A stretch of DNA of 64,000 bases, taken from assembly GCA_029906985.1 (NCBI GenBank), contig JARYMT010000002.1, positions 186,001 through 250,000 of the forward strand, given 5' to 3'. Position 1 is the first letter of the stretch; each line of letters opens with the position of its first letter. Below are positions 12,864-29,507 of the stretch, piece by piece. The translations under genes were made by a program, and so were the position numbers. Source of the stretch: Microgenomates group bacterium. GTDB taxonomy: Bacteria > Patescibacteriota > Microgenomatia > UBA1406 > GWC2-37-13. The notes under the pieces are model-generated. The model ran no database searches and was not told where the DNA came from. It worked only from the letters and a program-made list of their open reading frames with translations.

Positions 12864-15800
12864 TTATTTAGCTATTTGATGATAAAAATGATAGTCTGTT
12901 GTATCACCCAATATCTGTCGTAGGTTTCTTTTGTAGTTTGTAGTTAACCATTTGTCAAGTTGTTGAAAGTCACAACTAACAGCCGTATCGATGAATCTTT
13001 TTAAATCTTCTCCATTAATCCTATGCTTGGAAATAAAGTCATTCAAACGCCTTACACCAATATAATAAGCAACTTCCTCAGCTTCTTTTTGAGAAACAGG
13101 AGCAAGCCTATTGGATAACCATTCAGTAAAAACTTCAGTATAGGTAGTTGGTCTAGCTATATCATAATTATGAAAACCGAAAGCTCTCTGAGCGCTGTGA
13201 ATTGTTTCATGTGTCTGTGTTGCTATGATGAAATTTTCACTTTTATCTGCCAGTTGATCTAAATTTAAAACAATTTCATCTGCTCCTGTATTTACTCCAT
13301 AATAGCTCGCCCCTCTGTTTCCATATCTAAATATCATTGTTTTTCCACCAGCGTATCCTGGTGAGACATCATCAATATCAAGGGGAGTAAATGGTTGTCT
13401 ATTTTGTCGAGCGATTCTTGCTCCAATTTCATTTAATTCTTCAGTCTTTTGTATTAAGGCTTTTCTAATATTTTGCAGAACATCTTGCGGTATATTTCCT
13501 TCAACAGATAAACTTCTAGCTGCTAAAAAAATTCTTTCTTCATATGTTAATTGTCCTAATGGTTTATTAAATAATCTCTGGGATCGATTATCAAATACAC
13601 TTAATAAACCTCTATTACAACCGGGACTTAAACAACCTTCGATCTCTGCTAATTTTTTTTCAAAAAATGACACATCAGTATCAGTTAAGGGTGTAAAAAA
13701 ATTCTCATCTCGTCCCATGTCATATTTTGTATATACATTCCTTAAAGCGTTCCTAATTCTATCTTTGGTTAAAGTTCGCAACTGAACTTTAGCTTTAGCT
13801 TGATTTAAAGCATTTTCTATGTATTTTCTTTCATTAAACACAATACTTAGGTCTTTTAATTGACCTGTTAGTCCCTGTGACGCAATGATTTTTTTTGAGC
13901 TACCTTTGGCAATATCAATTAGGTATATAGCACCACCGGGTGATCTTCCAATTACAAACTGCTGACCACTTAACTGAATAATGTCACCAGCTTTTAGACG
14001 TGAAGATTCACTGATTGGATTAAAAGCTTTGACCTGTGTGTCAAAAATAAGGACTGGGTTGTTCCCAAAATCAGAAAAACTAATTGTACCATCACTGTAT
14101 GTTGTTAATTTTGCATAATCAGTACCAAGATTCGGATCAAAAAACTGATTGTCTAAATTAGTACCTATTACAACTTGATTTTTTCGAACGACAACCTTTA
14201 CAGTTGGTGCCTTTTCTACTAAAATTCTTTGTTTCCCGTCTGGGGCAGATTTCATTCCTTTATAAATAAACTCCTCATCTGGTTTGCCGACCCTTTTTAT
14301 GACCACCTTCTCTCCTCCTTTTAGAAAGGCTTGACTCCCGGTAATTTCATTCCCATCAATATAGACCCTAATATTTTGTCGATCAACAACGTTTAATACT
14401 GCATCATTGTTGCTCTGGCCAAACCTGATCCCATTTTTTGTTTCTGTTGTTACATAGGCTGTGGTTTCTTTTTTTGCCTCTGACAGTCTGGTCGATATTT
14501 GATCTTTCAGATGATCAAAACTCGTTTTTATTCTATTTGTCAAAGAGTTTTTTTTCCGAAGTTCAAGAACTTCTTGGGCATAACGTTTTGCTTTTCCAAG
14601 CTGATCAAGGTTGTCTATATATGATATCGTATCAACCTTTTCCCACTCATGTAATATAGCTTCTGCTAATTCGTCTTCATTTTTTATGTGACTAAATTTT
14701 TTGCTATAAGCAATTAGATTTGTTTGATCAACTGAAATATTATTATTAGCCCCAACTTCTTTAATCTTTACTACTCTTGAACTTAACCTATTAATTCTTT
14801 CTATTTCCCTTTTAACAGAGTCTGCCACCTTATTGGTATTTATCACGACAATACTTTTTTTTGGAACAAGTATTTGATATCCTTTTCCAACCGGAGCATT
14901 TAAGTTTTGTTTTAAAAGATTACTAAAATCCGATGAATCAGGGATTTGACCGGCTGAAATATGATATTTACTAATTAATCTTTCCGCTGCTCCGGCTTCA
15001 TCAATTAGACCAATTTTGATATCACGCGCCAAAAATCTAGCCGCTTCTTCGGGTGTATAGGTTAAAGCTGAACGAGGAACAATAAACTCAAAAGCTTTTT
15101 GACCAACTTTTTTTACACCATTAGCTACTCCTTCAATAACAGGGATTTTATTGGTCACCACATCTAATGTTTTGCCAACCCTTTGACCCATCATAGAAAA
15201 TGGTTTAGAAGCTGCTAAAGCTTTTGAGCCGGCCTCAACAGCAGTTGAAATTGGGGCAGATTTAATAAAAGGAGCTGTCCATGTCTCTGGGGAAGTCCAT
15301 TCAAGAGCTTTCCCCGCCCAAGAAATAGCTTTTCCTCCAGCCTCAAGACCTCTTCCGAATCCGCCTATTAATTTTGAATTACTAGCGACTAATTTTGCTC
15401 CTGCTTTAGTTGTCAAATTCCCTATCCCACCAACTCCTTTAGCGGCTGGCAATAATATTGCTACTGTATTAGTTAAATCTATTCCTGCCGATCGAGCTGA
15501 TTCGGCAGCTATTCTTTCATAATTCCCTTCCTCTTCTTTTCCAAAAGCAGCGGTCATCAAACCACGATCAGCGGCAGCGATACCTCCAAAAGTTACTTTA
15601 TTTAATGCTCCAAAAGTCATTTTATTGGCAAAATCCAATCCGCCAGCAACACCACCTGCCAAAGCTTGACCGACTGTAACTTTTCTTTTTTCACCTGCGT
15701 GAGTTTTTTCATACTCAATATTAGCTTTCATATTATTAACATAGTAATTCCCTAAAGAACTCGTCGCCTGGGCTTCTTTATTACCAAAAGTCCTGGAAAT

Positions 15801-17453
15801 AGCGGCAGACACACTACCCCATGCATGACCAAGACCATCACCAAAACGCATAAGACTAGCAGAAACTTTCTGACCGAAGCCAATGTTTGGGTCATGGGTG
15901 TATTTTTCATAGGCCTCTTGTCTTAGATGATATTGATCTTCCGCGTGAACTGCTAAAGTAACGATGTCACCGGACTCGACTTTTTTTTGACCACTTTGAC
16001 AAATCTTTGGATCAATGGCAATAAATTCACCCGGCTTATCAGAATAAGGTTTAAAACAACTATAGCAGAGATTATTTTCCATCTTAGTTTCTCCATAGTT
16101 TGTACAACCAGCTCTCTGGCATTTTCCATTTATACAAATTTCACTAGTAATTCCGCACGGCTGACATTTTGCTTTTCCTAAACGCAAAATACCAGTTCCG
16201 GCACAAATACTGGTGGAACCACAGCAAGTATTTTTAGTACAACTTTCTTGAGAAACATCAATCTTTGAAATCCCTTCCTCACTCTTTTTAAAAACTTTTG
16301 CTTCATCATTATTAGTTGGAATCTGAAGTCTCTGGGCAATAAAATCAGCCTGTTGTTTAGCAGTATAGCATTTGTAACATTGGTTAGAAATAGTTGTACA
16401 ATAATTAGGGGGTGAGCAATCAGACTTACATTCTTTTAAAGAAGAATAATCACAATTTATTTTTACTATGGCAGTCGGCACAGGCGAAACAGATCCAGTT
16501 TCTACCGGAGAAACAATACGCTCAGTTTTAGCGCATTTAGCCAAATCTGTTTTTACAGGAGGAATATAGGGAGAAAAACAGTAATAACATTCACCGTTAA
16601 CCAAACCTGTTTGGCCATAACTTAAACACCATTTATTGTCGGGGGTCGGAGATATTTTTGCAATTAATGGCGTTGGTTCTGTGGTGGGAATTGCTGGTTT
16701 TGTCGGGCGCAAAGTTGGACTCGGCTGACTAATAATAATTGGCACCTCTCCCCCTCCAGGCGTTATTGACGGCCAAGCGATATTCGGCTGACCAGTAATT
16801 GCAAATTGATCACCGCAGGTGGTCGAAGTCGGTGTTCCAACCCGTTCACTAACAGTGCAGTTATCATTCCAATAGGTTTCGATACAAACATAAACTCCAA
16901 GATTAACATCACATTCCTGACGGGCACAATACTCAATAACCGCACCTTTATTGCATGGGGCGGTATCTAATCCACAAGTCTCATTGGTCGGCCGACCTGG
17001 TTTTTCCTGAAACTGGAGATTATTGTCGCAATAAGTCTCGATACAAACCAGTTTTTTGATATTGGTATCACAATCTTTACGCACACAGCTATCAATAGTC
17101 ACGCCCGGAGTTTTTCCAACACAACGTGGGTCAGAATTAATAGGTCCCGAACCGCTATCAGGAGCACATCTAACCGCGCATTGAGGATATTTATAAGCCC
17201 ATTGTCCCCCCTCGCATAAAAAAACCTGCTCAACTCCAGCATCACTTGGGCAACTTTGCCTCTCTCTAGGACTTAAGCATTCAGTCCGCCACTGACCGTT
17301 TTCACATTCGATGGCTTTTGATTTATAAACTAAATTTTTATTATTTAATGCATTTAAAATAAAAAAAAAGCTGGTAAAAGCTAAAATTAGAACAGGAATG
17401 AGATAAAATAAAAGGCGGTATAAAACCTTTGCCCGAATCTTTTTTAAAGGCAT
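12864..17453 (-). CDS. Giant Cys-rich surface protein with C-terminal HExxH domain
   Basis: 1529 residues. One N-terminal transmembrane segment (about 12-35) is followed by roughly 450 residues of Cys-rich modules and Pro/Thr linkers, then about 200 residues rich in Gly/Ala with repeated hydrophobic stretches (near 560-760). Several beta-rich domains follow. The C-terminus has a zinc-peptidase motif THETIHSAQ (HETIH at 1415-1419) with candidate third-ligand glutamates at 1440 and 1444. An anchor, a stalk, a hydrophobic middle and an enzyme at the tip resemble polymorphic-toxin or contact-dependent effectors, but no immunity gene is obvious; the 112-aa membrane protein downstream is only a positional candidate. 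A wall-acting protease is the alternative. Confidence 0.75.
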   Translation of the reverse strand: MPLKKIRAKVLYRLLFYLIPVLILAFTSFFFILNALNNKNLVYKSKAIECENGQWRTECLSPRERQSCPSDAGVEQVFLCEGGQWAYKYPQCAVRCAPDSGSGPINSDPRCVGKTPGVTIDSCVRKDCDTNIKKLVCIETYCDNNLQFQEKPGRPTNETCGLDTAPCNKGAVIEYCARQECDVNLGVYVCIETYWNDNCTVSERVGTPTSTTCGDQFAITGQPNIAWPSITPGGGEVPIIISQPSPTLRPTKPAIPTTEPTPLIAKISPTPDNKWCLSYGQTGLVNGECYYCFSPYIPPVKTDLAKCAKTERIVSPVETGSVSPVPTAIVKINCDYSSLKECKSDCSPPNYCTTISNQCYKCYTAKQQADFIAQRLQIPTNNDEAKVFKKSEEGISKIDVSQESCTKNTCCGSTSICAGTGILRLGKAKCQPCGITSEICINGKCQRAGCTNYGETKMENNLCYSCFKPYSDKPGEFIAIDPKICQSGQKKVESGDIVTLAVHAEDQYHLRQEAYEKYTHDPNIGFGQKVSASLMRFGDGLGHAWGSVSAAISRTFGNKEAQATSSLGNYYVNNMKANIEYEKTHAGEKRKVTVGQALAGGVAGGLDFANKMTFGALNKVTFGGIAAADRGLMTAAFGKEEEGNYERIAAESARSAGIDLTNTVAILLPAAKGVGGIGNLTTKAGAKLVASNSKLIGGFGRGLEAGGKAISWAGKALEWTSPETWTAPFIKSAPISTAVEAGSKALAASKPFSMMGQRVGKTLDVVTNKIPVIEGVANGVKKVGQKAFEFIVPRSALTYTPEEAARFLARDIKIGLIDEAGAAERLISKYHISAGQIPDSSDFSNLLKQNLNAPVGKGYQILVPKKSIVVINTNKVADSVKREIERINRLSSRVVKIKEVGANNNISVDQTNLIAYSKKFSHIKNEDELAEAILHEWEKVDTISYIDNLDQLGKAKRYAQEVLELRKKNSLTNRIKTSFDHLKDQISTRLSEAKKETTAYVTTETKNGIRFGQSNNDAVLNVVDRQNIRVYIDGNEITGSQAFLKGGEKVVIKRVGKPDEEFIYKGMKSAPDGKQRILVEKAPTVKVVVRKNQVVIGTNLDNQFFDPNLGTDYAKLTTYSDGTISFSDFGNNPVLIFDTQVKAFNPISESSRLKAGDIIQLSGQQFVIGRSPGGAIYLIDIAKGSSKKIIASQGLTGQLKDLSIVFNERKYIENALNQAKAKVQLRTLTKDRIRNALRNVYTKYDMGRDENFFTPLTDTDVSFFEKKLAEIEGCLSPGCNRGLLSVFDNRSQRLFNKPLGQLTYEERIFLAARSLSVEGNIPQDVLQNIRKALIQKTEELNEIGARIARQNRQPFTPLDIDDVSPGYAGGKTMIFRYGNRGASYYGVNTGADEIVLNLDQLADKSENFIIATQTHETIHSAQRAFGFHNYDIARPTTYTEVFTEWLSNRLAPVSQKEAEEVAYYIGVRRLNDFISKHRINGEDLKRFIDTAVSCDFQQLDKWLTTNYKRNLRQILGDTTDYHFYHQIAK

Positions 17454-17500: not shown

Positions 17501-18115
17501 TTACTGGCAATTGTTGATGTTGACCTTGCCGATGCATTTGTTTTTGACAAAGTCATTAAGAGTGCAGCCTTTATTAATTTTTTGACAGATTTTGACACAA
17601 TCGGTTTCTCCGCAACCTCCGGTGTCAATTTTTATTGAAGAAATTGGCGTTGGCGTCGGGGTAATCCCGCCGGCAGATTGAGATACCGTCGGCGTTGGAC
17701 TGCTGATCTGGGTGGGCAAACTTTCCTCTCGGGTTTTGGTGGTAAAAGTCCAGGGAACTCCGCCGTTATCGTATTTTTTTTCACCGATTCTAATTTGAAA
17801 ATAATAAGTCGTCCCTGGTGACAAGAGAGTCAAATCAACCGAATGACTTTTCCCCATTTGACTTTCCGGCCCAAAAAAATTCATCGAAGTTGGCGATGTT
17901 CCGTATTCAACCACTCCTTGTGTGTCCTGTCCAGTCGCCCAGCTGATTTTGGCGGAGCTTTGGGTAAGTTCGGAAACAACTACGTCTCTTGGTTCGACAT
18001 CAGCCGCCCGGGTAAAAACTTTCTCAATAAGCTTAAACCCTCCCATGATTAAAAAGAGGGAGATAACTGTTCCAATTAAAATCGCCGTAATTTTGGTGAC
18101 TTTGGAATTACTCAT
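17501..18115 (-). CDS. Exported protein with FN3-like domain and Cys-rich tail
   Basis: 204 residues. An N-terminal transmembrane segment (about 8-30) leads to a fibronectin type III-like or purple-acid-phosphatase-type N domain (about 38-125): VSELTQSSAKISWATG, GVVEYGTSP, LSPGTTYYFQI and WTFTT are the usual strands. A Thr/Pro linker follows, then a short tail with six cysteines. It heads the minus-strand block next to the 1529-aa protein, whose N-terminus has a similar Cys-rich style. Probably a surface binding or spacer protein. Confidence 0.75.
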   Translation of the reverse strand: MSNSKVTKITAILIGTVISLFLIMGGFKLIEKVFTRAADVEPRDVVVSELTQSSAKISWATGQDTQGVVEYGTSPTSMNFFGPESQMGKSHSVDLTLLSPGTTYYFQIRIGEKKYDNGGVPWTFTTKTREESLPTQISSPTPTVSQSAGGITPTPTPISSIKIDTGGCGETDCVKICQKINKGCTLNDFVKNKCIGKVNINNCQ

Positions 18116-18128
18116 ATCTTTAAATTAA

Positions 18129-18782
18129 TTAAAGAATTAATTTAGCCACTCCTCCTAAAAATAATAATACTGCCCCCGGGATAGAGTATTTTACCACGTT
18201 ATCAAATATTCCCGACCGAGGCAATGTCGATCCGGCCGAAGACGCTCGTGGAGTCGCCGTTGGACCGGTCGCCCCCCCCGTGCCGATAACGACGCTTGCC
18301 GAACCATTGCTGGCACATTGAATAATATCTGTCGCGTTAAGATCATTTTTTGTAATATTGCTGTCGGTAGTCAACCCTTGGGCGCAATCAAAGGTAACAT
18401 TGGCAACGCCGTTGGCTTTGGCGGTAAACCGAATCGACGCCAAAGTGCCGCTGCCGGTTTTATATGTCGCCGGATCATTAACCATCCCGGCAATATAGGC
18501 TTTCCCCGTCACTGAAGTGTCTTTGGAGATTGTTGGAAAAAAAGTGCCGTCAGTGACACTCACAACTTCAAGAAGATTGGCATCATAGACAATAAAGGCA
18601 TCAACAGAGGTAATCTGATCAGAACCGGCATTAATTACGATATTAAGGTCAAAAGATTGACCTGCCGATGTAGTAATAGTAGCCGGATTAAATTCTAAGG
18701 TGGCAGCCAAAACATTAACTGTTAGTGGTAGGAAAAAAAGAAAACTTAAAATTAAAAGAAGTTTGATAATAACCTTTTTCAT
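18129..18782 (-). CDS. Cohesin-domain protein with C-terminal membrane anchor
   Basis: 217 residues from the ATG at 18782, chosen because a normal signal peptide (MKKVIIKLLLILSF...VLA) begins there. The mature part is one cohesin-like domain: ATLEFNPATITTSAGQSFDL, the V-D-A-F-I-V-YD strand, and the later TLASIRFTAKANG strand. A Pro/Ser linker and a C-terminal hydrophobic segment (VVKYSIPGAVLLFLGG) follow, a sortase-free anchor. A single anchored cohesin is what is needed to hold dockerin-bearing proteins of this cluster at the cell surface. Confidence 0.8.
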   Translation of the reverse strand: MKKVIIKLLLILSFLFFLPLTVNVLAATLEFNPATITTSAGQSFDLNIVINAGSDQITSVDAFIVYDANLLEVVSVTDGTFFPTISKDTSVTGKAYIAGMVNDPATYKTGSGTLASIRFTAKANGVANVTFDCAQGLTTDSNITKNDLNATDIIQCASNGSASVVIGTGGATGPTATPRASSAGSTLPRSGIFDNVVKYSIPGAVLLFLGGVAKLIL

Positions 18783-19407
18783 TATTATCATAATAATTAA
18801 AAAAAAAGCAATTGTCAATAATTATACTGGTGACTATATAGAAAATTTTACATGTTAAATTTTAAAACGGGCTTTGATGTCGGGTGGTCAAATTTCCTTT
18901 TATTGATAGATTAATTAATAATTATTCTTCAAGCAAAAAAGCGAAGCGGTCGGGTTAAGAATAAGGGTTTGAAGTCGGTCAAAAGCAGGTTTCCAAAAAA
19001 CATTAAAAAGCAATATTTTTCGAGCAAAGTTAAGAAGCAAGAAAATTTCAGATTATAGGTTTTTTATCGCCACAAACAGCAACTAAGGGACAGTCCTCGA
19101 CAATTTCAAACAATAACTTATTTTTCCACTACAATTAATTAATTAATTGTAGTGGTTAAGCTTGTTTTTTGTTCTAATTGGTGGACAGCTTTTACCTGAT
19201 GCTTTTTAAGTATTTTGGAATTTCCCAACAAAGCTCAAATAACAAACAATGATCCTTGACTCAAAATACTCAAACGGTAACAAAAAAACAATTCTTTAAC
19301 AGGCTCGAACAACAACCAAAAACAACAAGCGAAATTAAGAACAGTTCTTGACAGGCTCGAACAGTAAGTGAGGATAATTCTCGACAGGCAAAATGTTGGT
19401 AACCAAT
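18783..19407. other. Gene-free stretch with dispersed repeat, copy B
   Basis: No gene is visible. From about 18920 it carries words also seen at 9034-9080. From 19126 it carries repeat copy B, ending near 19345. Short TCGACAGGC/TCGAACA words recur three times between 19300 and 19395. Confidence 0.6.
19126..19345. repeat. Dispersed repeat B with 30-bp palindrome
   Basis: The palindrome at 19126-19155 is identical to that of copy A (8799-8828). The following 190 bp are co-linear with copy A, with a few indels. Confidence 0.75.
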
Positions 19408-20559
19408 TCACTTAGTTAAAATCGTTAAACTGGAAACCACCAATGAAAAATCTGAAGCGTTAACGACACCGTCTAAGTTAAAATCGGCATTTTTTAATAT
19501 CTCTGCTTTGGTGGTGTTTAAATTATTTCTGACATAAGCCAGATCATAAGAATTAATTATTTCATCATCGTTGACATCTCCAGCTAAAACAGGTCTTTCG
19601 GATAAATCAAAATCATTTTCTCCTTCAGTTAAAATTAAATCTTGAACTTCAATTTTCAAATGTTTGGGCACTTTTATCTCTACCTGATAAATTTTTTCCG
19701 GACTTAAAGGAATCTCGGTAAAAGTGGCCTTGCCTTGCCAAACTGCCTGATTATTGGCTGTCAAAGAGATTGTTTGTTTTTTTTGTTCTTTTAATGTCTC
19801 TCCTTTGACCACCACTTCAATTTCTGACAAACTGGTGGTTTTTTCCGGCTTTTTGACCACCCCTTGAAGCTTTAATTCAATATTTAATTGTGTTTCTCCG
19901 GCAGGAATTGGAGTTGGGGTAATCGTTGGTGTCGGAGTTGGCTGGTTGGTGATATTGCCGGTCGGGGCCGGCCGGGTCGGTTCTAAGGTAATCGATGGAC
20001 CAGCTGCCTGCCAAATTCCCAGCGTCAGATCAGCTAAAGTCAATTTGTAATCATCGCCGGCCAAGGAAAAACCAATGACTTCATAGTCTTGGTCAATAAA
20101 AATATCACTTTTTCCTCCCCCCACCGCCTTAAATTTTATCGTTGCCAATACAATGGTATTGTCGGAGGATAAATCGGCGTCATTTTTATCGGCAAAAAGG
20201 ACTATCCTTACTTCACCGGCTTGGTTATTAATTGACGGCGAAAAATTGTCGGTAAAAGGTTTATCACTGCCGGCATTAGCCAAAAGATTCTCTGCCTGAA
20301 TGACATTGGGATTATATTTTATTGCCAGATTGACACCGACGATTTTTTTGCCGGTTGGATTATTTAATGTCAGCAAAGCTTCTTTTTCGCTATTTGACTG
20401 AAAAACATAATCTCTTGGCGTTAAGCTTAAACTTAAATCGGCGGTTTGGGCTTTTAGACGCAAATCTCGGTTTCTTTTTAAAACAAAAGTCAAATTTACT
20501 AAAATCAGAAAAACAGAAAACAAAATGATAATCAAAAAAAATTTATTATTTTTTTTCAT
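19408..20559 (-). CDS. Cohesin-dockerin surface protein (paralogue 1)
   Basis: 383 residues from the ATG at 20559, placed two bases after the stop of the upstream glycosidase-like gene. Signal/anchor segment at about 5-28; cohesin-like domain about 35-185; Thr/Pro linker; a second beta domain (LQGVVKKPEKTT, PKHLKIEVQ); and a C-terminal type I dockerin with two calcium loops, DVNDDEIINSYD and DFNLDGVVNASD. Domain order and many residues match the protein at 23295-24596, so they are paralogues. Carrying both partner domains, it could work as a scaffold link. Confidence 0.82.
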   Translation of the reverse strand: MKKNNKFFLIIILFSVFLILVNLTFVLKRNRDLRLKAQTADLSLSLTPRDYVFQSNSEKEALLTLNNPTGKKIVGVNLAIKYNPNVIQAENLLANAGSDKPFTDNFSPSINNQAGEVRIVLFADKNDADLSSDNTIVLATIKFKAVGGGKSDIFIDQDYEVIGFSLAGDDYKLTLADLTLGIWQAAGPSITLEPTRPAPTGNITNQPTPTPTITPTPIPAGETQLNIELKLQGVVKKPEKTTSLSEIEVVVKGETLKEQKKQTISLTANNQAVWQGKATFTEIPLSPEKIYQVEIKVPKHLKIEVQDLILTEGENDFDLSERPVLAGDVNDDEIINSYDLAYVRNNLNTTKAEILKNADFNLDGVVNASDFSLVVSSLTILTK

Positions 20560-20561
20560 AG

Positions 20562-22367
20562 TTAATTTCGTGACCGGCGCCAAATTTCCAAATCAGATAA
20601 ACAAACTTTTTTGTCGTGATCAAAATCAGCTGAATAACACCCCCTGTTTTTACACAAGCTTTGGGCAAAATCAGTTTTCCACTGATTTTTGTCATCGATG
20701 TTTATTTGACCATCGCCATTGGCATCACCGGTGGTATTATTCGCCCACTGACAAATCACTTCACCGGGAATTTTGATAATTACGGCGGCGTGCCCATCGA
20801 CTAAATAGTTAAAACTCGTGCCAACCGAAATATTGCTCGTTGTCTGAATTGGCCCTCCCGGCTCTTCGCTGTTAAAATCCGCATTAGGAACTCTTAAAAT
20901 ATAAGCCTCGCCTTTATCTTGAGCCTGATAACCGGAAATGCTGATTCTGGCAGTTTTCGCCCTGTTGTTTATATCTTTATTAATTAAAATTACTCTTAAA
21001 TTGCCATCTTTGTCCAAAGAGGCATGCGAATTCAAAATTTCCGGCTGGTCAGAAGAACTTTGAACAATGGTATTGCCAAAATACTGGTTGTAAAAATTAT
21101 AAGCCTCGGTAACAACCGAACGCTTGCCATCAGCCGGCCAAACAAGACTGGTAACAAAAGTGTGAATTTGGATATTTTTAATTCCTGCTTCGGCGCTAAT
21201 TCCCAATTCATCCAAAAACCAAAAAGCGCCCCCCCATGTCAAGTGAAGTCGGCGGGTTGGAAAATTGCCGGGAACTCGGCATTTGTTTTGACAGGTCGAG
21301 GGAATTTCTGCTTTTGATTGGTAAAGACAGGGGTCGCAGCCGCCATATAAAGTTAAATCACCTTTATAATTTTGCTTTAACCAGCAACAGCCCTTAACCA
21401 CATCGTCGTCTTGGTAAATACCTCCATATTCCTGCCCAGCCGCCCAAGGTAAAACTTCACCAAAACCAATTTCTGCTTCTCGGCTAACCTCATATTTTTG
21501 AGCCCACAATTTCATATCGCGCACCACATCATAAGGATAAAGCATCCGTCTTAATCTGGGACTTAAACTATCCCCTTCCCAGCTTAAAAGTTTATTGCCG
21601 TCGGTATATGTCCGGTTTCTGATATCCAGCTCGCCCAAATATGGATACCAGTGGGTTTTAAGATAATCGATTTTTAACTTAGGTGTTTTTTCGTTAAGTT
21701 GACGAATAATACACTCGCCTACAGTTTCGTCTGTCCCTCTGACTTTAGCGGCATATTCAAAAAGTTCAAGAGCATGAATTTTTGCTTCAGGAATAATATC
21801 TTTGACAATTAAACCAGCCTGATGGATGAGATTAGCCCATCCTGGGCAATTATCAGCGGTTGTCGGCGGCTCGCCGCCGATTGTCCAGTGAAGACAATGC
21901 TTGTTATCGCCAAATACCCGCTGACATTCGTCTTTGACCAGCTGAACCCGTGCCCGCATTTTGTTTGGATCACTATAAGGAGGCGGCATTCCGCTAATCG
22001 GGGAAAAGATTGGATCACAGTTGACTTCTTTACAAAGGCGGATCAAGGCTTTAACCTCATTATCTTCAAGAACTGGTGAACCAGGATACATCAAGTAATA
22101 ATTGGTTAATATCAAAGTTGGTGGATCAGCGTCTTGAGAAATTAAGTATTTTAATGAATCAATTAAACTAGGATTGGACAAATCGATTAAACTGTTAGGA
22201 TCATATCTTTCGCTAATATAACCGCCTTTGATTTGAGTGAAGTCTTCATTAAGAATTTGATGAGGATTGATTTGAATATTAACGGTTTCTTGGGCAAGGA
22301 CTTTTAATTTACTGCCACCAACCAAAAAAATTAAGGTAAAAAAAAAGATAATAATTTTTTTTATCAT
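20562..22367 (-). CDS. Glycoside hydrolase-like enzyme with C-terminal dockerin
   Basis: 601 residues. Signal peptide 1-26. The body reads like a clan GH-A TIM barrel: a candidate acid/base glutamate in HWTIGGEPP (E166) and a candidate nucleophile in EIGFGEVLPW (E304), with a C-terminal beta-sandwich ending in VDGHAAVIIKIPG as in GH39/GH51/GH79-type enzymes. A dockerin closes the protein (DANGDGQINIDD and DFDHDKKVCLSD). It should bind to a cohesin and act on an extracellular glycan. The exact family is uncertain because the usual NEP is GEP here. It is translationally close to the cohesin-dockerin gene that follows. Confidence 0.75.
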   Translation of the reverse strand: MIKKIIIFFFTLIFLVGGSKLKVLAQETVNIQINPHQILNEDFTQIKGGYISERYDPNSLIDLSNPSLIDSLKYLISQDADPPTLILTNYYLMYPGSPVLEDNEVKALIRLCKEVNCDPIFSPISGMPPPYSDPNKMRARVQLVKDECQRVFGDNKHCLHWTIGGEPPTTADNCPGWANLIHQAGLIVKDIIPEAKIHALELFEYAAKVRGTDETVGECIIRQLNEKTPKLKIDYLKTHWYPYLGELDIRNRTYTDGNKLLSWEGDSLSPRLRRMLYPYDVVRDMKLWAQKYEVSREAEIGFGEVLPWAAGQEYGGIYQDDDVVKGCCWLKQNYKGDLTLYGGCDPCLYQSKAEIPSTCQNKCRVPGNFPTRRLHLTWGGAFWFLDELGISAEAGIKNIQIHTFVTSLVWPADGKRSVVTEAYNFYNQYFGNTIVQSSSDQPEILNSHASLDKDGNLRVILINKDINNRAKTARISISGYQAQDKGEAYILRVPNADFNSEEPGGPIQTTSNISVGTSFNYLVDGHAAVIIKIPGEVICQWANNTTGDANGDGQINIDDKNQWKTDFAQSLCKNRGCYSADFDHDKKVCLSDLEIWRRSRN

Positions 22368-22484
22368 TTAATTATCAATAATAAACAGACAATTATAAAT
22401 TGACTATTATAATGATAGAAAAAACTTTTAATAATATCAATAACAAAGTTTTAAAACCCCGCCTTCCCATCTTTGCTTTTTGTA

Positions 22485-22509
22485 GACACACCTACGAGGT
22501 GTGTTTTTT
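22485..22509 (+). terminator. Hairpin plus T-tract, left copy
   Basis: ACACACCT (22486-22493) pairs with AGGTGTGT across a 3-nt ACG loop and is followed by six T. On the plus strand it is a good intrinsic terminator, yet no plus-strand gene ends before it. An identical 25-bp copy lies in opposite orientation at 31896-31920. Confidence 0.6.
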
Positions 22510-22617
22510 GGCCTCTGGACAATATAAAAATAATCAGAAGAAATAAAACAAAGAAAAAAGGAACATTTTTTTAAATTTTTATCTTAATTAGCTCTTGTTT
22601 TTTTAAAAAGAATAAAT

Positions 22618-23262
22618 TTACTTTGTTTGGGAGGCTAAATTCAAAGTAATTCCTTCAACTTTTCCGAGTTGATCGGCGCTTTGATTATCAATCAAATTAG
22701 AATCTTTTTTGCTTCCCGGCACAAAATCTAAGCCCAAATTGATTGTCCCGCTTTTTAATACTTTAAAAGTCAATTCAGCAATGTCGGTATTATCAAAAAC
22801 AATTTCCTCGTTGGTATTTAATTTTTTAACACCGGTTAGATAAATTTGATTGGGCTTTACGCTGGTAAAAAGCTGAAAATTTGGGTTGAGACTTTTTTGG
22901 CCAAGATATTTTAACAAATTATCATCTGTTTTTATCACCGCATCATAGCCTGTAATTGGCTTATTATCAGAATAAGCATTGACAACTAAAGTGATTGTTT
23001 GTCCGACTGAAAAGTTGGTTTTTCCGGTTTTGCTTTTCAAACTTAAAACTCCTTTTTCCTGAATAACAGTTGGCACTGGTGAAACTTCGGGTATATTTTG
23101 ACTATAATTAACTGTTTTTTTCTTTGAACCCGAGATAAATACCAGAAGCAATATAATAAAAAGGACAATTACGCCGGCAATGACTATTAAAAATGTTTGA
23201 TTGCTGTTTTTTTCCTCGGTTTCCGCCGGCATTTGGGTTTGGTTATTATTTGTGATTTCCAT
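22618..23262 (-). CDS. Membrane-anchored cohesin-like protein
   Basis: 214 residues. A short cytoplasmic Gln/Asn/Glu-rich start, one transmembrane helix (about 24-48), a linker, then a cohesin-like domain (about 65-210): GVLSLKSKTGKTNFSVGQTITLVVNAYSDNK, ITGYDAVIKTDDNLLKYL and DIAELTFKVLKSGTINLGL are the usual strands. It is an N-terminally anchored counterpart of the C-terminally anchored cohesin at 18129-18782. The next minus-strand gene upstream is a cohesin-dockerin protein 32 bp away. Confidence 0.75.
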   Translation of the reverse strand: MEITNNNQTQMPAETEEKNSNQTFLIVIAGVIVLFIILLLVFISGSKKKTVNYSQNIPEVSPVPTVIQEKGVLSLKSKTGKTNFSVGQTITLVVNAYSDNKPITGYDAVIKTDDNLLKYLGQKSLNPNFQLFTSVKPNQIYLTGVKKLNTNEEIVFDNTDIAELTFKVLKSGTINLGLDFVPGSKKDSNLIDNQSADQLGKVEGITLNLASQTK

Positions 23263-23294
23263 ATTTTTTTTATCAATTTTTAATAAGCCAACTT

Positions 23295-24596
23295 TTATTC
23301 ATCAGACCTTATTGACAAGGCGGCGATGATCAATGAATAATCTTGGGCATTGACAACGCCGTCAAGGTTTAAATCAGCCCAGTTGACCGCTTGGCTATCA
23401 TTTTTATTTAAATTTGTCGTCACCAAGGAAGTGTCATAGGAATTGACAATCCCGTCCTGCATTCCTCCCTGACCGGGTAAATCACCGACCAACTGATAGA
23501 TATTGGAAAAGTCAAAAGTGTTTTGTCCGGCCGCCAAAGCGATTTGACCATCGTCACAGTGATAAGTGCCCGGGTATGTCTCCAAAGGCGAAGCGCTGCA
23601 GATTTTTTTTCGCAAATGCTTTGGTCCTTTGGTGTAAATCCGGTAATTTGTGCCGGGGGTCAGGGTGGTAAATGTCACCGAACCAGTCCAGACGGCATTA
23701 TCATTGGCAGTAAATTCGGCTGTTTTTGTTTCTTCTTTGCCGCCGCCAACCGCCCTGACTTTAACCTGAAGCTTGTTCGAATCTCCGCTTGGCCTTTTTA
23801 AAACGCCCTGGAATTTGAGTTTAAGGTTAAGAGTAATGTTTTGCGATTGTGTTTCTGTTGTTTGTCCTGCTGTTGGCGATGGACCACCGCTGGTTGGCGA
23901 TGGGCCTTGTGTTACTGTAGCTGCTGGTCCGGGAGTATTAGTCGCCGCAGGAGTGGTCGGAGTTGGCGTCCGAGTAGGTGTTGGTGATGGTCCGGGAGTA
24001 TTAGTAACCCCTGATTGACTAACGGTTATGGTTAGAGGATTATACTGTTCTACAGTTAACCTACCGCTTTCTCCAACTATCTCTGCATTCTTAAAGACAA
24101 ATTTGCCGGAAAGCCCATTAGTAACATCGCTTCTCACGATAAATTTTACTACAGCAATATCAGCTGTAATGCCTGGATCAATCAAATCACGTGTCTGAGG
24201 ATCTCTCTGAGCATCCGCGAAAACAGTAATTTGATTTGTGGCAGTAAGTCCGCCACCTGATAGCTGGGAGGAAGTAAAAGGAGTTTGATAAGTTATTAAT
24301 CCCGTGCTAGCTGGTTGTAGAATATTTGCTGGAAACTCAAAAACAATTCTTCCGGTGACAATTTTTTCACTGCTGGTTTTTCTTATGGTCAAATAATATT
24401 CTTTTCCGGCAGTACCATCAGCAGTTACTGTCGAAAAACCAGAAAAGGATAAATCTACACCATTGGCGCTGGCTGCTTTTGGTTTGTATGTAAATTGGGT
24501 TTTTGGCCTGACAATTATTATCCCTAATATAATAAGACAGGCAAATAAGCCCAGATAAGCCAAGATTTTAATAGTGTTTGCATTTATTTGCTTCAT
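23295..24596 (-). CDS. Cohesin-dockerin surface protein (paralogue 2)
   Basis: 433 residues. N-terminal transmembrane segment (about 8-28); cohesin-like domain about 45-195; a long Thr/Pro/Ser linker (TPGPSPTPTRTPTPTTP); a beta domain with LKLKFQGVLKRPSGDS and PKHLRKKIC; then a dockerin. The first calcium loop has a short insertion (GDLPGQGGMQDGIVNSYD) and the second is canonical (DLNLDGVVNAQD). Same architecture as the 19408-20559 gene product. It likely takes part in a chain of cohesin-dockerin contacts at the surface. Confidence 0.82.
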   Translation of the reverse strand: MKQINANTIKILAYLGLFACLIILGIIIVRPKTQFTYKPKAASANGVDLSFSGFSTVTADGTAGKEYYLTIRKTSSEKIVTGRIVFEFPANILQPASTGLITYQTPFTSSQLSGGGLTATNQITVFADAQRDPQTRDLIDPGITADIAVVKFIVRSDVTNGLSGKFVFKNAEIVGESGRLTVEQYNPLTITVSQSGVTNTPGPSPTPTRTPTPTTPAATNTPGPAATVTQGPSPTSGGPSPTAGQTTETQSQNITLNLKLKFQGVLKRPSGDSNKLQVKVRAVGGGKEETKTAEFTANDNAVWTGSVTFTTLTPGTNYRIYTKGPKHLRKKICSASPLETYPGTYHCDDGQIALAAGQNTFDFSNIYQLVGDLPGQGGMQDGIVNSYDTSLVTTNLNKNDSQAVNWADLNLDGVVNAQDYSLIIAALSIRSDE

Positions 24597-24626
24597 TTAT
24601 TGTTAAAAAACTAAAATCTTTCTTTT

Positions 24627-26132
24627 TTAATCAAGGGTTTGAGTACAATTAGCTGGGTTGTAATTGTTCTTAAAGATGGTGAAATCGTCTCCCCCCACCT
24701 CGCCATTGCCATCAAAATCTGCTCTTAGTTTTGCTTCTCCAGATGCTATATTATAAGTTCCTAACTGCCATTTAAAATAATCCTCAAGACATGCTAATCC
24801 ATCACCGGTGGCGTCACCTTTGGTTCTAGCATAGCCAACATTTGTACAGTTAGCGTTGGTTATACAAGCAAAGCCGTCTAAGGATCCACCAACTACATCT
24901 TGACAAGTAGAAGAACATTTGCCTGAAGTACAGCTACAGTTGGGGATAGGAGTATTAGTTGGGCCGGATGTTCCAGAAGAACCTGTTGGGCCAGTAGCTC
25001 CTGAAGTTCCTGTGGCACCTGAGGGACCAGTAGCTCCTGAAGTTCCTGGTGATCCAGAAGACCCTGTTGGACCAGTAGCTCCTGAAGTTCCTGGTGATCC
25101 AGAAGACCCTGTTGGACCAGAAACTCCGGTAGTTCCGGTTGGGCCGGATGTTCCAGTAGAACCAACATATATTGTTTTTGGACCACAAATTGTTTCTTTT
25201 CCCGGTTCGTTACTACTATTCCAGGTATTGCTGGCATTATAGTCATACCAAACAACACTACGAACTTTGACTTCATAGGTTTCGTCACTTTTGCCATCCG
25301 CTTCACAAATTAAAGTACCTGTTGATTCACCGGAATAAACGTTGCTGGTTTGCGAAGGAGTTACAACAATTCCAATTTTTGTCATGCTTAACCAAGTATC
25401 TCCGTTTTGTTTTTTATAATAACAAGCTGGCCAAAAGGTAGCAAATTTTTCGTTTTTCCCCTCAAAATCAAAAGAAGTCCTAATTTTTGTTGTCTCATTA
25501 TTATCATTATTATTATGTATCCATACTTGTTGGTTTTGACAAACCGGCGGGGTTAAAGTAGGCAAAATTCCAACTTTAACGCCTAATTTTGGGGGATTAT
25601 TAATGTTTGCTAATTGTCCTCCATAGTCTGGTCCAATAATACTGCTTGCCGTAATCTGTAATCTACCTAAACCAACAGAATCTCCTCCTTTAATTTTGAT
25701 CGGAATATTGATTTGTTTAGCTAACTTATCTTTTGAGCTTTTCATTACTAAAACAAAATTTACTTTGGTCTGCTCAACTATTATGCAATCGGTAGAATTT
25801 CCACTTGGGCAAATTATCCCTTCACCTATTGATATAATTGAAAAAGGGGCATTTGACCCACCGTTGCCCACTGTTTCTAAATTTATCGATAAACCCGATA
25901 TTTCATTTGAAGCTGATAATTGAAGATTTATTACTTTTTCTTCCTCTTTACTGATGCTTATTCCGTTCGTCGTCACTTCAGTCGTGTCTTCAAAATATTT
26001 GGCAGTAACCGTTGGCACAACTGCTTTTGGCCTATATATGTATTTATTTACATACCGCCAGACCAAAACAAGAGCAATAACTCCAACAGCTATAAGAAGT
26101 AATGTTTTTATTTTTTTGAAATCTATTTTCAT
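24627..26132 (-). CDS. Collagen-like surface protein with dockerin
   Basis: 501 residues. N-terminal transmembrane segment (about 12-30); a cohesin-like beta domain (about 40-195); a second globular part; a collagen-like stretch of 23 Gly-X-Y triplets at 324-392, rich in T, S, P and A; a short Cys-rich link; and a dockerin ([12 protein letters not shown] and [12 protein letters not shown]). The collagen part should form a rigid trimeric rod. Start and the upstream stop overlap by one base (TAATG), which implies coupled translation with the 26132-27325 gene. Confidence 0.8.
24955..25161 (-). repeat. Tandem coding repeats of the collagen-like region
   Basis: The DNA is made of 9-, 18- and 45/54-bp related units. 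One unit of about 45 bp (around 25033-25077) is repeated almost exactly just after it. The stretch is prone to length change. Confidence 0.7.
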
Positions 26133-27325
26133 TAAATGTTATCTAAAGCGTTATTACGCCAAATTTCAAAATCTTTTAAATCAACTTTGCCATCATCATT
26201 AAAATCTGCTTTTAGTCTTGTTCCGGTTTTTCCATATGCTTTTAGCCAACAAGGGGGGTTGGGCGATGAACTAAAACACGCCGAGTCATCAAAATCTTTA
26301 TCATCTACATTTCCATCGCTATTAGCATCACCTCGTTTGTGAAGATTTACAGTTGTTGGCGTCGGACTTGAAATAGGGCTTTTTGTAGGACTTAAAATAG
26401 GAGTTGGAGTTGCGGTTGGACAAGTTTGGGTAAAGTCGCCAGATCGAGCATCAGGGTTACCGGTAGTTCCGGTATAACCTCCAACAAAAACAGTGTATTT
26501 TTGACCCTGTGTTAAATTGGTCATTAAATAATTAACACTCCCGTTTGAGCTTGAAAGACCTTCAATTTTATGACCACCCCAATCTGGATTACAACATTGG
26601 TCTTTCCATCCACCGTTAGTTATTACATAATTAGGACACCAGCAGATCCAATAATTTGAACAGTTGGAAGCAACCCATGAAGCTTTTGTGCTAGTTGTCC
26701 CGCCCTCACATATATTAAAAGTCGGGTAACCTGGATTCCCGCACGTGGTAGCACAATTATCACAACAACCTCTCTGACCTGCATAAGTATTATTTACATT
26801 GGTACAATATCCGTTTGAGTCCTGCCAAGTCCCACCACAATTAGCACATTCACCTCGCGTAGCACACCATTTACATATTTTTGGTGTAAGTGTAGGCGTT
26901 ACGCCATGTGTCGGTGTAGGCGTTACGCCATGTGTCGGTGTAGGTGTACGCGTTACGCCCAAGCAAGCAAATAGTTGATTTTTACAGAATATACATAATT
27001 CTTGTGGGCATTCATTGTTACATTTTAAATCAGCATATGTACCTATTTCGCATAGAAAATTTATTTTGGGTTCACAAGCAGTATAAATGTTAGTCAATTT
27101 GGGAACACACGTATTACAGGGATAATTGAAAAGATTCATAAACCAATCGCACACATCAGTGCCATCACTATTTTTCAATGATTTACACTCCCCCCACGTT
27201 TTTTGTTCAAAACATTGATTAGGATCAGGTGAAGGAGAGGGGGTTTGCGCCCTGATCTGCTTTATAGAAAAAATAATTAGGAAAAATAGGATAATTGGGA
27301 AAGAGTATTTTATTAACTTCTTCAT
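26132..27325 (-). CDS. Secreted Cys-rich protein with dockerin
   Basis: 397 residues. Signal peptide 1-26 (cleavage after IRAQ). A Cys-rich domain (about 35-125), a Thr-Pro linker with TPTHGV repeats, a second Cys-rich domain beginning [15 protein letters not shown], a beta-rich part, another Thr/Pro linker and a C-terminal dockerin ([12 protein letters not shown] and [12 protein letters not shown]). It has no cohesin and no anchor, so it depends on a cohesin partner to stay at the cell. Function of the Cys-rich parts is unknown; a binding role is plausible. Confidence 0.78.
26888..26959 (-). repeat. 24-bp tandem repeat coding for TPTHGV units
   Basis: Two exact 24-bp units (26888-26911 and 26912-26935) and a diverged third encode the Thr-Pro linker of the dockerin protein. 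Confidence 0.75.
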
Positions 27326-27381: not shown

Positions 27382-27723
27382 TTACTTTGAAACCGGACTT
27401 ATCATAATTGTTGGTTTTCTTATGGGCCTAATCGGCGGCAAAGTCGGTTCATTGACGGTCGGCAATACTTTCGGGGTAACTGTCAGGACTCGTCGAGGGA
27501 TAAAATCACATCGCCTATTGACTATCCCCAAAGGACAGCTCTCTCCCACCCATACCCCATCAACACATCGGCAACGCTGCCAAAAGGCGGCGCCGACATT
27601 GGGATTATAACGATTGTTGATATAAAGCAATAAATTGACTAACAAAACCAAAAGCAATGCCAAAAGTAAAAGGATGATGATTTGAAAAGAACTTTTGTTT
27701 TTCATTTTTTTTCTTTTTACCAT
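27382..27723 (-). CDS. Small membrane-anchored Cys/Pro-rich protein
   Basis: 113 residues (or 107 from the ATG at 27705; both starts precede a good anchor). A basic start, a 23-residue transmembrane helix, then FWQRCRCVDGVWVGESCPLG with four cysteines, and a Pro/Thr-rich tail. The short Cys motif resembles modules in the 1529-aa and 601-aa surface proteins of the block. It probably is exposed outside and may be a cut-down relative. No family recognised. Confidence 0.6.
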   Translation of the reverse strand: MVKRKKMKNKSSFQIIILLLLALLLVLLVNLLLYINNRYNPNVGAAFWQRCRCVDGVWVGESCPLGIVNRRCDFIPRRVLTVTPKVLPTVNEPTLPPIRPIRKPTIMISPVSK

Positions 27724-27750: not shown

Positions 27751-28386
27751 TTACGGGATAGAAACCTTCATGAGACAAAGTCCGCATCCAGGCCCATTAT
27801 CCTTCACGGCCGGATTGCCCGAACAAATTTTTCTTGTTTCCAAATTTGGATCGAATTGGTTATTGTTGTTAATGTCTTTGAAGGCATACATGGAGGCGAT
27901 AACGTAATAATTCCCCGAGTTAATAGATTTAGCATATAAAACGTGATAACCAGAGGCATTCCCTCCATACCAACCATTCCCTGTCATTGGATTCAAAGCC
28001 GCCCATTTAACTAAATCAGGAGAGTAATAAGCGTCAACCCTAAGTTTGTAACCACCATCCGGTTGGTTGCCATTAAAATAAAAAGAAGTTAATAATATAT
28101 TCCCTACACCATTAAGTTTGATCGATTTAACATCAATTTGTTTACAGGCGGGGTAATTTAGTGTCGGTGGTGGAGTTGGTGTAAATAATATCATATGATA
28201 GGATGTTGGGGTGGGACTGGGAGAAATAAAAATTTGGACTTGGGTCGGTGAAATTTCAGAAGCTTTTGACCGAGTAATTTGTTTTTGTTGTCCAGCAAAA
28301 TATATTGCTGTTATTAAAAAGGTTGTAGAAAAAATCAATAACAATACAAACAAAATCTTTTTATATTTTATTAAATTATTTTCCAT
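27751..28386 (-). CDS. Exported protein of unknown function
   Basis: 211 residues. N-terminal transmembrane segment (about 10-32), a Pro/Thr/Ser linker (PSPTPTS...TPTPPPT), and a beta-rich C-terminal domain of about 125 residues with DINNNNQFDP, a single calcium-loop-like stretch, and four cysteines near the end. Strand order (YKLRVDAYYSPDLVKW, GYHVLYAKSIN) suggests a jelly-roll or Ig-like fold but I cannot name it. It follows the same design as its neighbours: anchor, linker, small domain. Confidence 0.6.
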   Translation of the reverse strand: MENNLIKYKKILFVLLLIFSTTFLITAIYFAGQQKQITRSKASEISPTQVQIFISPSPTPTSYHMILFTPTPPPTLNYPACKQIDVKSIKLNGVGNILLTSFYFNGNQPDGGYKLRVDAYYSPDLVKWAALNPMTGNGWYGGNASGYHVLYAKSINSGNYYVIASMYAFKDINNNNQFDPNLETRKICSGNPAVKDNGPGCGLCLMKVSIP

Positions 28387-28396
28387 AAGCTATTTA

Positions 28397-28693
28397 TTAA
28401 ATAACTTTCAAAAGCCTAAACAAGAAAAAACTAATAAAGTAAAAAAGGACCACTTGAAAAATAGGCAAATAAAGAGTCAGAAAAATCGCCACAATTGCCA
28501 AAATAAAGAAAGCTTCGTTGTGAATTGATGGGAGAAGACCCTTGGTAAAAAGAATAAGAATGACAAGGGTTAGAAGCGCCCGCTTGTCAAACCACCACAA
28601 AGACCAACCGAAAAACATCGCCAGACCAATGAGAATAGCGGTAATGATAAGGAATATTTCTTTGGTGTCGAAATAAAATGGACCTATGTACAT
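28397..28693 (-). CDS. Small membrane protein sharing its N-terminus with MntA
   Basis: 98 residues, three hydrophobic segments. Its first 14 residues (MYIGPFYFDTKEIF) are nearly the same as those of the nucleotidyltransferase at 29118-29507 (MYAGPFYFDTKKIF). The DNA identity begins at the ATG and runs about 40 bp, so part of one gene was copied onto the other. It lies 12 bp after hepT and may be cotranscribed. Function unknown. Confidence 0.55.
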   Translation of the reverse strand: MYIGPFYFDTKEIFLIITAILIGLAMFFGWSLWWFDKRALLTLVILILFTKGLLPSIHNEAFFILAIVAIFLTLYLPIFQVVLFYFISFFLFRLLKVI

Positions 28694-28705
28694 ATATATT
28701 ATTTA

Positions 28706-29125
28706 TTATAATTTAATTTTATTTTTTATTATATCTAAAAATTTATTTATATCATCGATGTCTTTGACTAAAACTTGGTAGAGTTTTTCAAAATCTATCT
28801 CTCCATAAACATGGGCTAAAAGATTACGAAAACCTGTCATCTTTATCATTTTTTCTGATAAATTCCTATCAATTAAATTATTTTCCTGAAAAATCTGAAA
28901 TATTTCGCCATAATTACCGGGGACTCTAAAGGAATAATAAGATATAACCGCTTCAGCCAAATCAATCGTCGACTGACATAATAAATAAAGATATCTTTGT
29001 AAGGCTCCATAACGTTCATCATTTTTGATTATTTCCTCAGGTTTATACTTTCGATATTTTTTTACCATCTGAAAGTATTTTTCTACCTCACTTATTTTTT
29101 TTATCAAAACTCTGACATTAGTCAT
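28706..29125 (-). CDS. hepT: HepT-type HEPN toxin (putative RNase)
   Basis: 139 residues, all helical. The HEPN active-site motif R-x4-H-x-Y is intact as RNLLAHVY (R100, H105, Y107). In the HepT/MntA system the HEPN protein acts as an RNA-cutting toxin, and the nucleotidyltransferase neutralises it by adding AMP near this tyrosine. The gene overlaps the 3' end of the mntA-like gene by 8 bp, the standard arrangement. Confidence 0.88.
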   Translation of the reverse strand: MTNVRVLIKKISEVEKYFQMVKKYRKYKPEEIIKNDERYGALQRYLYLLCQSTIDLAEAVISYYSFRVPGNYGEIFQIFQENNLIDRNLSEKMIKMTGFRNLLAHVYGEIDFEKLYQVLVKDIDDINKFLDIIKNKIKL

Positions 29126-29507
29126 TTCTTCTATCTATAAATGTATAAAAATCAAAATATTCACTTAAAATCATCGGCTCTATTTTCAGACGATACGGCT
29201 GTTTTTCGTATAAAATTTTTCGTTTGGAAATAATTTCATATTTTAAAAGCGGATCTAATCTATCATTTAAGCTAACTATGTCAATATTATTTGTTTTTAA
29301 CTCGCCCATTAAATCAACATTAAGACGAATTTTGATATTGGTTCGTTGAAGCGGAGTTGTTTTTTCGTCAAAATAAACAGCAAAGTCATAATCGCTTAAA
29401 AGCCCGGCCCTTCCGAATGCCTTTGAACCAAAAAAATAGACTAACTTGATTTCGGGATATTTTCCGAAAATCTTTTTCGTGTCGAAATAAAATGGACCGG
29501 CGTACAT
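29118..29507 (-). CDS. mntA: MntA-type nucleotidyltransferase antitoxin
   Basis: 129 residues. The minimal nucleotidyltransferase motif GS-x10-D-x-D is intact (G27, S28, D39, D41 in FFGSKAFG..LLSDYD). It should AMPylate the HepT partner encoded downstream. The N-terminus MYAGPFYFDTK is unusual for the family and is duplicated in the small membrane protein at 28397-28693. No other start codon lies before the GS motif, so this start is probably real. Confidence 0.88.
   Translation of the reverse strand: MYAGPFYFDTKKIFGKYPEIKLVYFFGSKAFGRAGLLSDYDFAVYFDEKTTPLQRTNIKIRLNVDLMGELKTNNIDIVSLNDRLDPLLKYEIISKRKILYEKQPYRLKIEPMILSEYFDFYTFIDRRND

Follow-up and report, generated by a model that had tools for sequence, protein, structure and literature searches.

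A conserved cohesin–dockerin operon in Microgenomates, a probable non-cellulosomal cell-surface scaffold

Cohesins and dockerins have already been reported from Candidatus (Ca.) Roizmanbacteria and Ca. Shapirobacteria. In Ca. Shapirobacterales (BG1-G2) the genes for both domains are expressed and were interpreted as a cellulosome (PMC9123182), and the same paper cites Geesink 2020 for cohesins and dockerins in Ca. Roizmanbacterium. The lineages and the domain families are the same as those analyzed here; the relevant passages of that paper offer the cellulosome reading and treat neither an operon nor an X module, a sortase signal, dockerin classes or a cargo survey. The Candidate Phyla Radiation (CPR) is not named in a survey of bacteria that display cellulosomes (PMC11557425). 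For the operon described here we found no published account in the open literature, subscription journals lying outside the search. It is located in a stretch of 64,000 nucleotides (the window; positions 186,001 to 250,000 of contig JARYMT010000002.1, assembly GCA_029906985.1) from a probably host-dependent Microgenomates group bacterium of the CPR type with a tiny genome, whose assembly of 953 kb is 98% complete, and comprises 11 minus-strand genes running from 28693 down to 17501.

We read this operon, at a probability of about 0.66, as encoding a small, self-contained, non-cellulosomal cell-surface scaffold, in which an anchored cohesin would receive an adaptor and the adaptor its cargo. 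The domains with their folds and order, the anchors, the division of the dockerins into two classes and of the cohesins into three, the gene order and the variability of the cargo all come directly from computation. The hidden Markov models (HMMs) of the lineage, one for dockerins and one for cohesins, were iterated on 40 loci of relatives. Relatives with such loci carry the name Ca. Roizmanbacteria, and matches extend into Ca. Shapirobacteria (L164-L171). Prevalence was counted in 44 good family genomes, 72 family genomes, 280 class genomes and 287 phylum genomes, and gene order in 70 distinct loci, many of which end at contig edges. The genes of the operon, named below by their lower coordinate, are the following (TM, transmembrane helix).

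28397-28693, minus strand: 98-residue membrane protein with three TMs, first conserved operon gene; the operon starts with it in about 20 of the 40 loci read, and its median identity is 78%.
27751-28386, minus strand: exported 211-residue protein without dockerin, separated by 10 bases from its neighbor; no Pfam match.
27382-27723, minus strand: exported 113-residue protein without dockerin, after a gap of 27 bases; no Pfam match.
26132-27325, minus strand: cargo with Cys-rich amino-terminal part and carboxy-terminal cargo-class dockerin (26150-26335; lineage HMM E 4e-14).
24627-26132, minus strand: cargo with amino-terminal domain, collagen-like repeats (24975-25136; Pfam Collagen 6.6e-9) and cargo-class dockerin (24660-24821; lineage HMM 1.5e-10).
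23295-24596, minus strand: adaptor 1 with amino-terminal TM, cohesin predicted from fold only (24048-24464), Pro/Thr linker, X module (23481-23840) and X-class dockerin (23316-23489; Pfam Dockerin_1 4.7e-7).
22618-23262, minus strand: amino-terminally membrane-anchored cohesin (TM 23131-23202; cohesin 22684-23031, Pfam Cohesin 1.4e-7).
20562-22367, minus strand: cargo, possibly a GH44-like glycosidase (weak match), with cargo-class dockerin (20571-20732; lineage HMM 1e-14).
19408-20559, minus strand: adaptor 2 with amino-terminal TM, cohesin (20077-20406; Pfam Cohesin 5.3e-8), linker, X module (19576-19896; X HMM 2e-20) and X-class dockerin (19426-19584; Pfam Dockerin_1 6e-11).
18129-18782, minus strand: putatively sortase-anchored cohesin with signal peptide, cohesin (18345-18689; Pfam Cohesin 2.7e-10), LPRSG (18210-18224) and carboxy-terminal TM.
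17501-18115, minus strand: FN3/purple-acid-phosphatase-N-like protein with amino-terminal TM, last conserved operon gene (Pfam Pur_ac_phosph_N 4.6e-10).

The first-pass annotation of this DNA had proposed five dockerins with paired calcium loops and cohesins in five proteins, all encoded on one strand, and every one of these genes is indeed present on the minus strand. All five dockerins were recovered by the HMM trained on the relatives' loci, with E values from 1e-19 to 1.5e-10. With Pfam (PF00404), the dockerins of 19408 and 23295 exceed the cut-off and that of 26132 is weak; for 24627 and 20562 a genome scan gives no more than hints. A second genome scan, using the cargo profile, which includes the 26132 sequence itself, returned 26132 at 1.7e-17. 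Paired calcium loops of canonical sequence were found in 19408 and 26132. Loop 1 of 23295 carries an insertion shared by its relatives, and 24627 and loop 2 of 20562 deviate from the canonical pattern at position 9. Across the 953-kb assembly only these five dockerins were detected, all inside the operon, on which ground a dispersed cellulosome was rejected.

The cohesins of 18129, 19408 and 22618 passed the Pfam cut-off (PF00963; 2.7e-10, 5.3e-8 and 1.4e-7, respectively). The AlphaFold2 model of 22618 reached a pLDDT of about 98 within the domain, and its top 44 PDB matches in Foldseek were all cohesins or cohesin-containing chains, including 1g1k, 2vo8 (TMt 0.83) and 2jh2, and 18129 matched the CipA cohesins 1anu/2ccl with E values of 0.001-0.003. 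The amino-terminal domain of 23295 falls below detection by Pfam and by the lineage cohesin HMM; hhalign aligned it with the adaptor cohesins at P=63%, and Foldseek matched its model to single cohesins at a probability of 1.00 with a domain pLDDT of about 60. The modeled fold probably represents a diverged cohesin. The fifth proposed cohesin, in the amino-terminal domain of 24627, was rejected, having no support from Pfam, lineage HMM or hhalign. Of the four Pfam cohesins in the genome, three belong to the operon. The fourth, on another contig (G000 contig C8:190262-190516; L104:10034-10630), is part of a 198-residue protein with a carboxy-terminal TM and without LPxxG.

Both domain families fall into classes that follow the architecture of the proteins. 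The dockerins split into an X-linked and a cargo class, and with HMMs built from half of the loci (ten random halves) the held-out sequences were assigned correctly in 254/254 cases for the X class and 226/231 for the cargo class. The calls for the five dockerins of the window match their architecture, with 26132, 24627 and 20562 assigned to the cargo class. The cohesins form three classes by location, namely amino-terminally anchored, carboxy-terminally anchored and adaptor; on the tree these labels change 15 times compared to 54.6 times when shuffled, a contrast drawn from a short alignment with many open forks and related rows. Such classes are what one would expect from an assembly in two steps, each with its own specificity, and the two dockerin and three cohesin classes make a two-step chain likely. 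The chain-like assembly first suggested is possible, but the order anchor, adaptor, cargo fits better.

Two membrane-anchored cohesins, one at each terminus, had likewise been described and were confirmed. Protein 22618 is anchored by an amino-terminal TM, and 18129 combines a signal peptide with LPRSG and a carboxy-terminal TM. Among 19 aligned carboxy-terminally anchored cohesins the L, P and G of LPxxG are invariant, the motif being mostly LPx(S/T)G followed by a very short tail, and a sortase is encoded in 72/72 family genomes, the genome of the window having three. Signal peptide, LPxTG-type motif, hydrophobic helix and sortase, as known for sortase substrates, are all present, with a weak charged tail; because this tail is short and contains one basic residue, the sorting signal is a prediction.

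Two proteins carrying both partner domains had also been noted. A Coh-X-Doc architecture is evident in 19408 from its sequence and in 23295 from fold prediction only. In every X-containing protein read, the X module is directly joined to the dockerin (X-Doc), and in the 23295 model this stretch (~251-429) forms one unit with a pLDDT of about 95. No known family could be assigned to the X module, as the PDB matches of the X-Doc profile fall mostly on the dockerin part. Searching with the whole 23295 model returned the CipA Coh-X-Doc fragments 4fl4 and 3kcp first (E 8e-9 to 1.6e-7), aligned along most of the length with low TM-scores (0.27), as expected with flexible linkers.

Within the proposed scaffold, 22618 would be held in the membrane by its amino-terminal helix and for 18129 a sortase-mediated link to the wall via LPRSG is predicted. 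The adaptors 19408 and 23295 would insert their X-dockerin end into the anchored cohesins, leaving their own cohesin facing outward, and the cargo proteins 26132, 24627 and 20562 would plug into these adaptor cohesins via the second dockerin class in a calcium-dependent manner. The purpose of the assembly may be to present lineage-specific adhesins, or an occasional enzyme, in contacts with a host or surface. We infer which cohesin takes which dockerin, that this depends on calcium, that the anchoring is covalent, that the proteins lie at the surface and what they are for. That the device keeps enzymes and rods in place at the contact surface, as initially proposed, is a plausible role.

The recurrence of the same gene order in many genomes shows that the operon is not a chance arrangement. 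The cohesin/dockerin system first noted in this CPR genome is real. The recurring order comprises the 98-residue protein, one or more dockerin cargos, TM-(cohesin)-X-dockerin, the amino-terminally anchored cohesin, the carboxy-terminally anchored LPxxG cohesin and the FN3 protein. A strict run of X-Doc, amino-terminally anchored cohesin, carboxy-terminally anchored cohesin with LPxxG and FN3 was found in 46/70 distinct loci, many of the others being cut by contig ends; the window is outside these 46, as the glycosidase-like cargo and the second adaptor sit between its two anchored cohesins. In five Shapirobacteria loci the FN3 protein ends in a dockerin, which ties it to the cohesin–dockerin system. 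Cohesins were detected in 44/44 good family genomes and 82/287 phylum genomes (~29%), dockerins in 39/44 good family genomes and X-Doc in 96/280 class genomes. Considering this prevalence and the earlier report (PMC9123182), calling the device unusual for a small genome was too strong. Extending the first-pass annotation, the present analysis adds the X module, the LPxSG/TG signal, the full extent from 28693 to 17501, the conservation throughout the family and the division of the dockerins into two classes. Some loci are reduced: L106, L126 and L141 contain a carboxy-terminally anchored cohesin and FN3 without X-Doc or amino-terminally anchored cohesin (two also with the 98-residue protein; L126 is cut by a contig end), and L153 and L154 just the 98-residue protein and FN3.

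The cargo is highly variable. The amino-terminal parts of the three cargo proteins in the window have no match at E<=0.01 among the proteins of the collected loci. Scanning 56 X-less dockerin proteins (five being of the Shapirobacteria FN3 type) with Pfam yielded one sulfatase and one LamG as well as CARDB, beta-helix, collagen, HINT and chitobiase-C-like matches. Enzymes are a minority among the recognizable cargo. The dockerin described on a glycosidase-like enzyme, 20562, was confirmed, and the enzyme itself is indicated by a weak, colinear match to a GH44 cellulase carboxy-terminal domain (E 0.048). Among 380 phylum genomes the only relative found for 20562 was a match of its carboxy-terminal domain in a 672-residue glycoside-hydrolase-like protein of G036.

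A true cellulosome for the breakdown of plant polysaccharides, the earlier inference for Shapirobacterales and Roizmanbacterium, appears unlikely. It could draw on the GH44-type resemblance of 20562, on the module order, which is that of CipA, and on the interpretation of Microgenomates cohesin/dockerin genes and their reported expression in the relevant passages of PMC9123182. Plant cell-wall hydrolases are not, however, the main cargo: none of the 56 cargo proteins matches a Pfam glycoside-hydrolase family, a scan that also missed 20562 and hence could miss distant enzymes, and the window contains one weak candidate. Furthermore, Pfam detected no cellulose-binding module (CBM) in the scanned proteins, and the genome encodes three cargo dockerins and no multi-cohesin primary scaffoldin; no protein in the loci read has more than two cohesins. 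Owing to the variable cargo and the 0/56 count, "cellulosome" is the wrong label, and a scaffold for surface display or contact is the better fit.

Equally improbable is that the anchored cohesins serve above all as receptors that capture dockerin proteins carried by other cells, either host or siblings, mediating attachment and not self-assembly. Four good genomes (G023, G031, G033 and G047) that keep cohesins without detectable dockerins would suit such receptors, as would the three reduced loci with a carboxy-terminally anchored cohesin, yet in most loci matching dockerins adjoin the cohesins in a fixed order. Slightly less probable still is a purely structural role, with EF-hand and beta-sandwich domains stabilizing or spacing surface proteins without binding each other. 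Dockerin-like modules without cohesin partners occur in other phyla, which we counted for this explanation, and the mutual binding it dispenses with is presumed for the operon; against it, cohesins and two dockerin classes co-occur in a kept order across Roizman- and Shapirobacteria.

Besides the four genomes lacking detectable dockerins, several observations weigh against the self-contained scaffold. Folding was done on single chains, so that the assignment of partners is putative, and the dockerin of 19408 has a fairly good cargo-class score too (~70 vs 43 bits). The operon genes are partly non-contiguous, with gaps of 622 and 250 bases, and a promoter-like site (TTGACA-17-TATTAT, 18790-18818) ends 7 bases upstream of ATG 18782, the likely start codon of 18129 (for 19408 this is likely ATG 20559). 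These gaps and the site before 18129 make more than one transcript likely, and the position of the site suggests that 18129-17501 may be expressed separately from a leaderless transcript.

The 98-residue protein is the best-conserved operon member. Upstream of it, an MNT-like nucleotidyltransferase gene (29118-29507) pairs with a HepT-like gene (28706-29125), and the start of the MNT-like gene is identical at 35/42 bases to that of the unrelated 98-residue protein gene, as if the toxin–antitoxin pair had been inserted along with a copy of this start. Downstream and on the same strand, 12864-17453 encodes an exported protein of 1529 residues with a Cys-rich amino-terminal part and an HETIH metallopeptidase-like motif, for which neither a Pfam match nor a relative among the collected loci was found. 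About 5-15 residues past the amino-terminal TM, exported proteins including 27751-28386 and 30028-31833 of the window and many from L068-L160 contain (S/T)(K/R)A followed by a small or acidic residue. This motif is present in 43/233 non-redundant proteins vs 4.3 in shuffles (max 11), and outside the operon families in 13/102 vs 1.6 (max 7), and is possibly a processing site. Rfam detected no RNA families across the window.

A life attached to other cells is assumed for most CPR bacteria, and we know of no established means by which uncultured Microgenomates hold their partners. A conserved scaffold with exchangeable cargo is a concrete and testable candidate for this attachment. In the epibiont Southlakia epibionticum a dockerin-domain protein is essential (PMC10633639), a hint that modules of this kind can be important in the phylum. 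In addition, the operon offers new cohesin–dockerin pairs in compact form for use in engineering and argues against taking these genes as a sign of cellulose breakdown by CPR bacteria. Tentatively, and with less confidence than in the scaffold itself, the non-cellulolytic scaffoldin operon of Microgenomatia might be a modular contact organelle, combining a fixed chassis of two anchors and adaptor with the fast-evolving cargo of each lineage that touches or holds a host cell or surface.

Compared to known systems, the carboxy-terminal trimodule of Clostridium thermocellum CipA (CohI9-X-DocII; 4fl4, 3kcp) shows the same Coh-X-Doc order within one adaptor and the same fusion of X to dockerin, and the anchored cohesins on separate proteins, which would receive the X-Doc end, are reminiscent of the type II surface anchoring cohesins of this organism. 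Unlike CipA with its nine cohesins, the adaptors described here have one or two, lack a CBM and carry an amino-terminal TM; their cargo is not cellulases, and the identity is low (~13%). A sortase-anchored cohesin with a carboxy-terminal LPxTG-type signal is known from Ruminococcus flavefaciens ScaE. The Limousia mucinolysome protein cSca5 shares such a wall-anchor signal (PMC12997984). Differing from ScaE and cSca5, the proteins studied here mostly have LPx(S/T)G, followed by a very short tail, and are accompanied by a second, amino-terminally anchored cohesin. Clostridium perfringens uses the pair non-cellulosomally, and some of the top structural hits of 22618 are its cohesins (NagJ and a GH33 enzyme; 2jh2, 2vo8; TMt up to 0.83). 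These are modules within enzymes, whereas the cohesin of 22618 makes up the entire ectodomain of a membrane protein. The Microgenomates scaffold resembles the anchoring end of a cellulosome, but lacks, as tested, the cargo and CBM features that define one.

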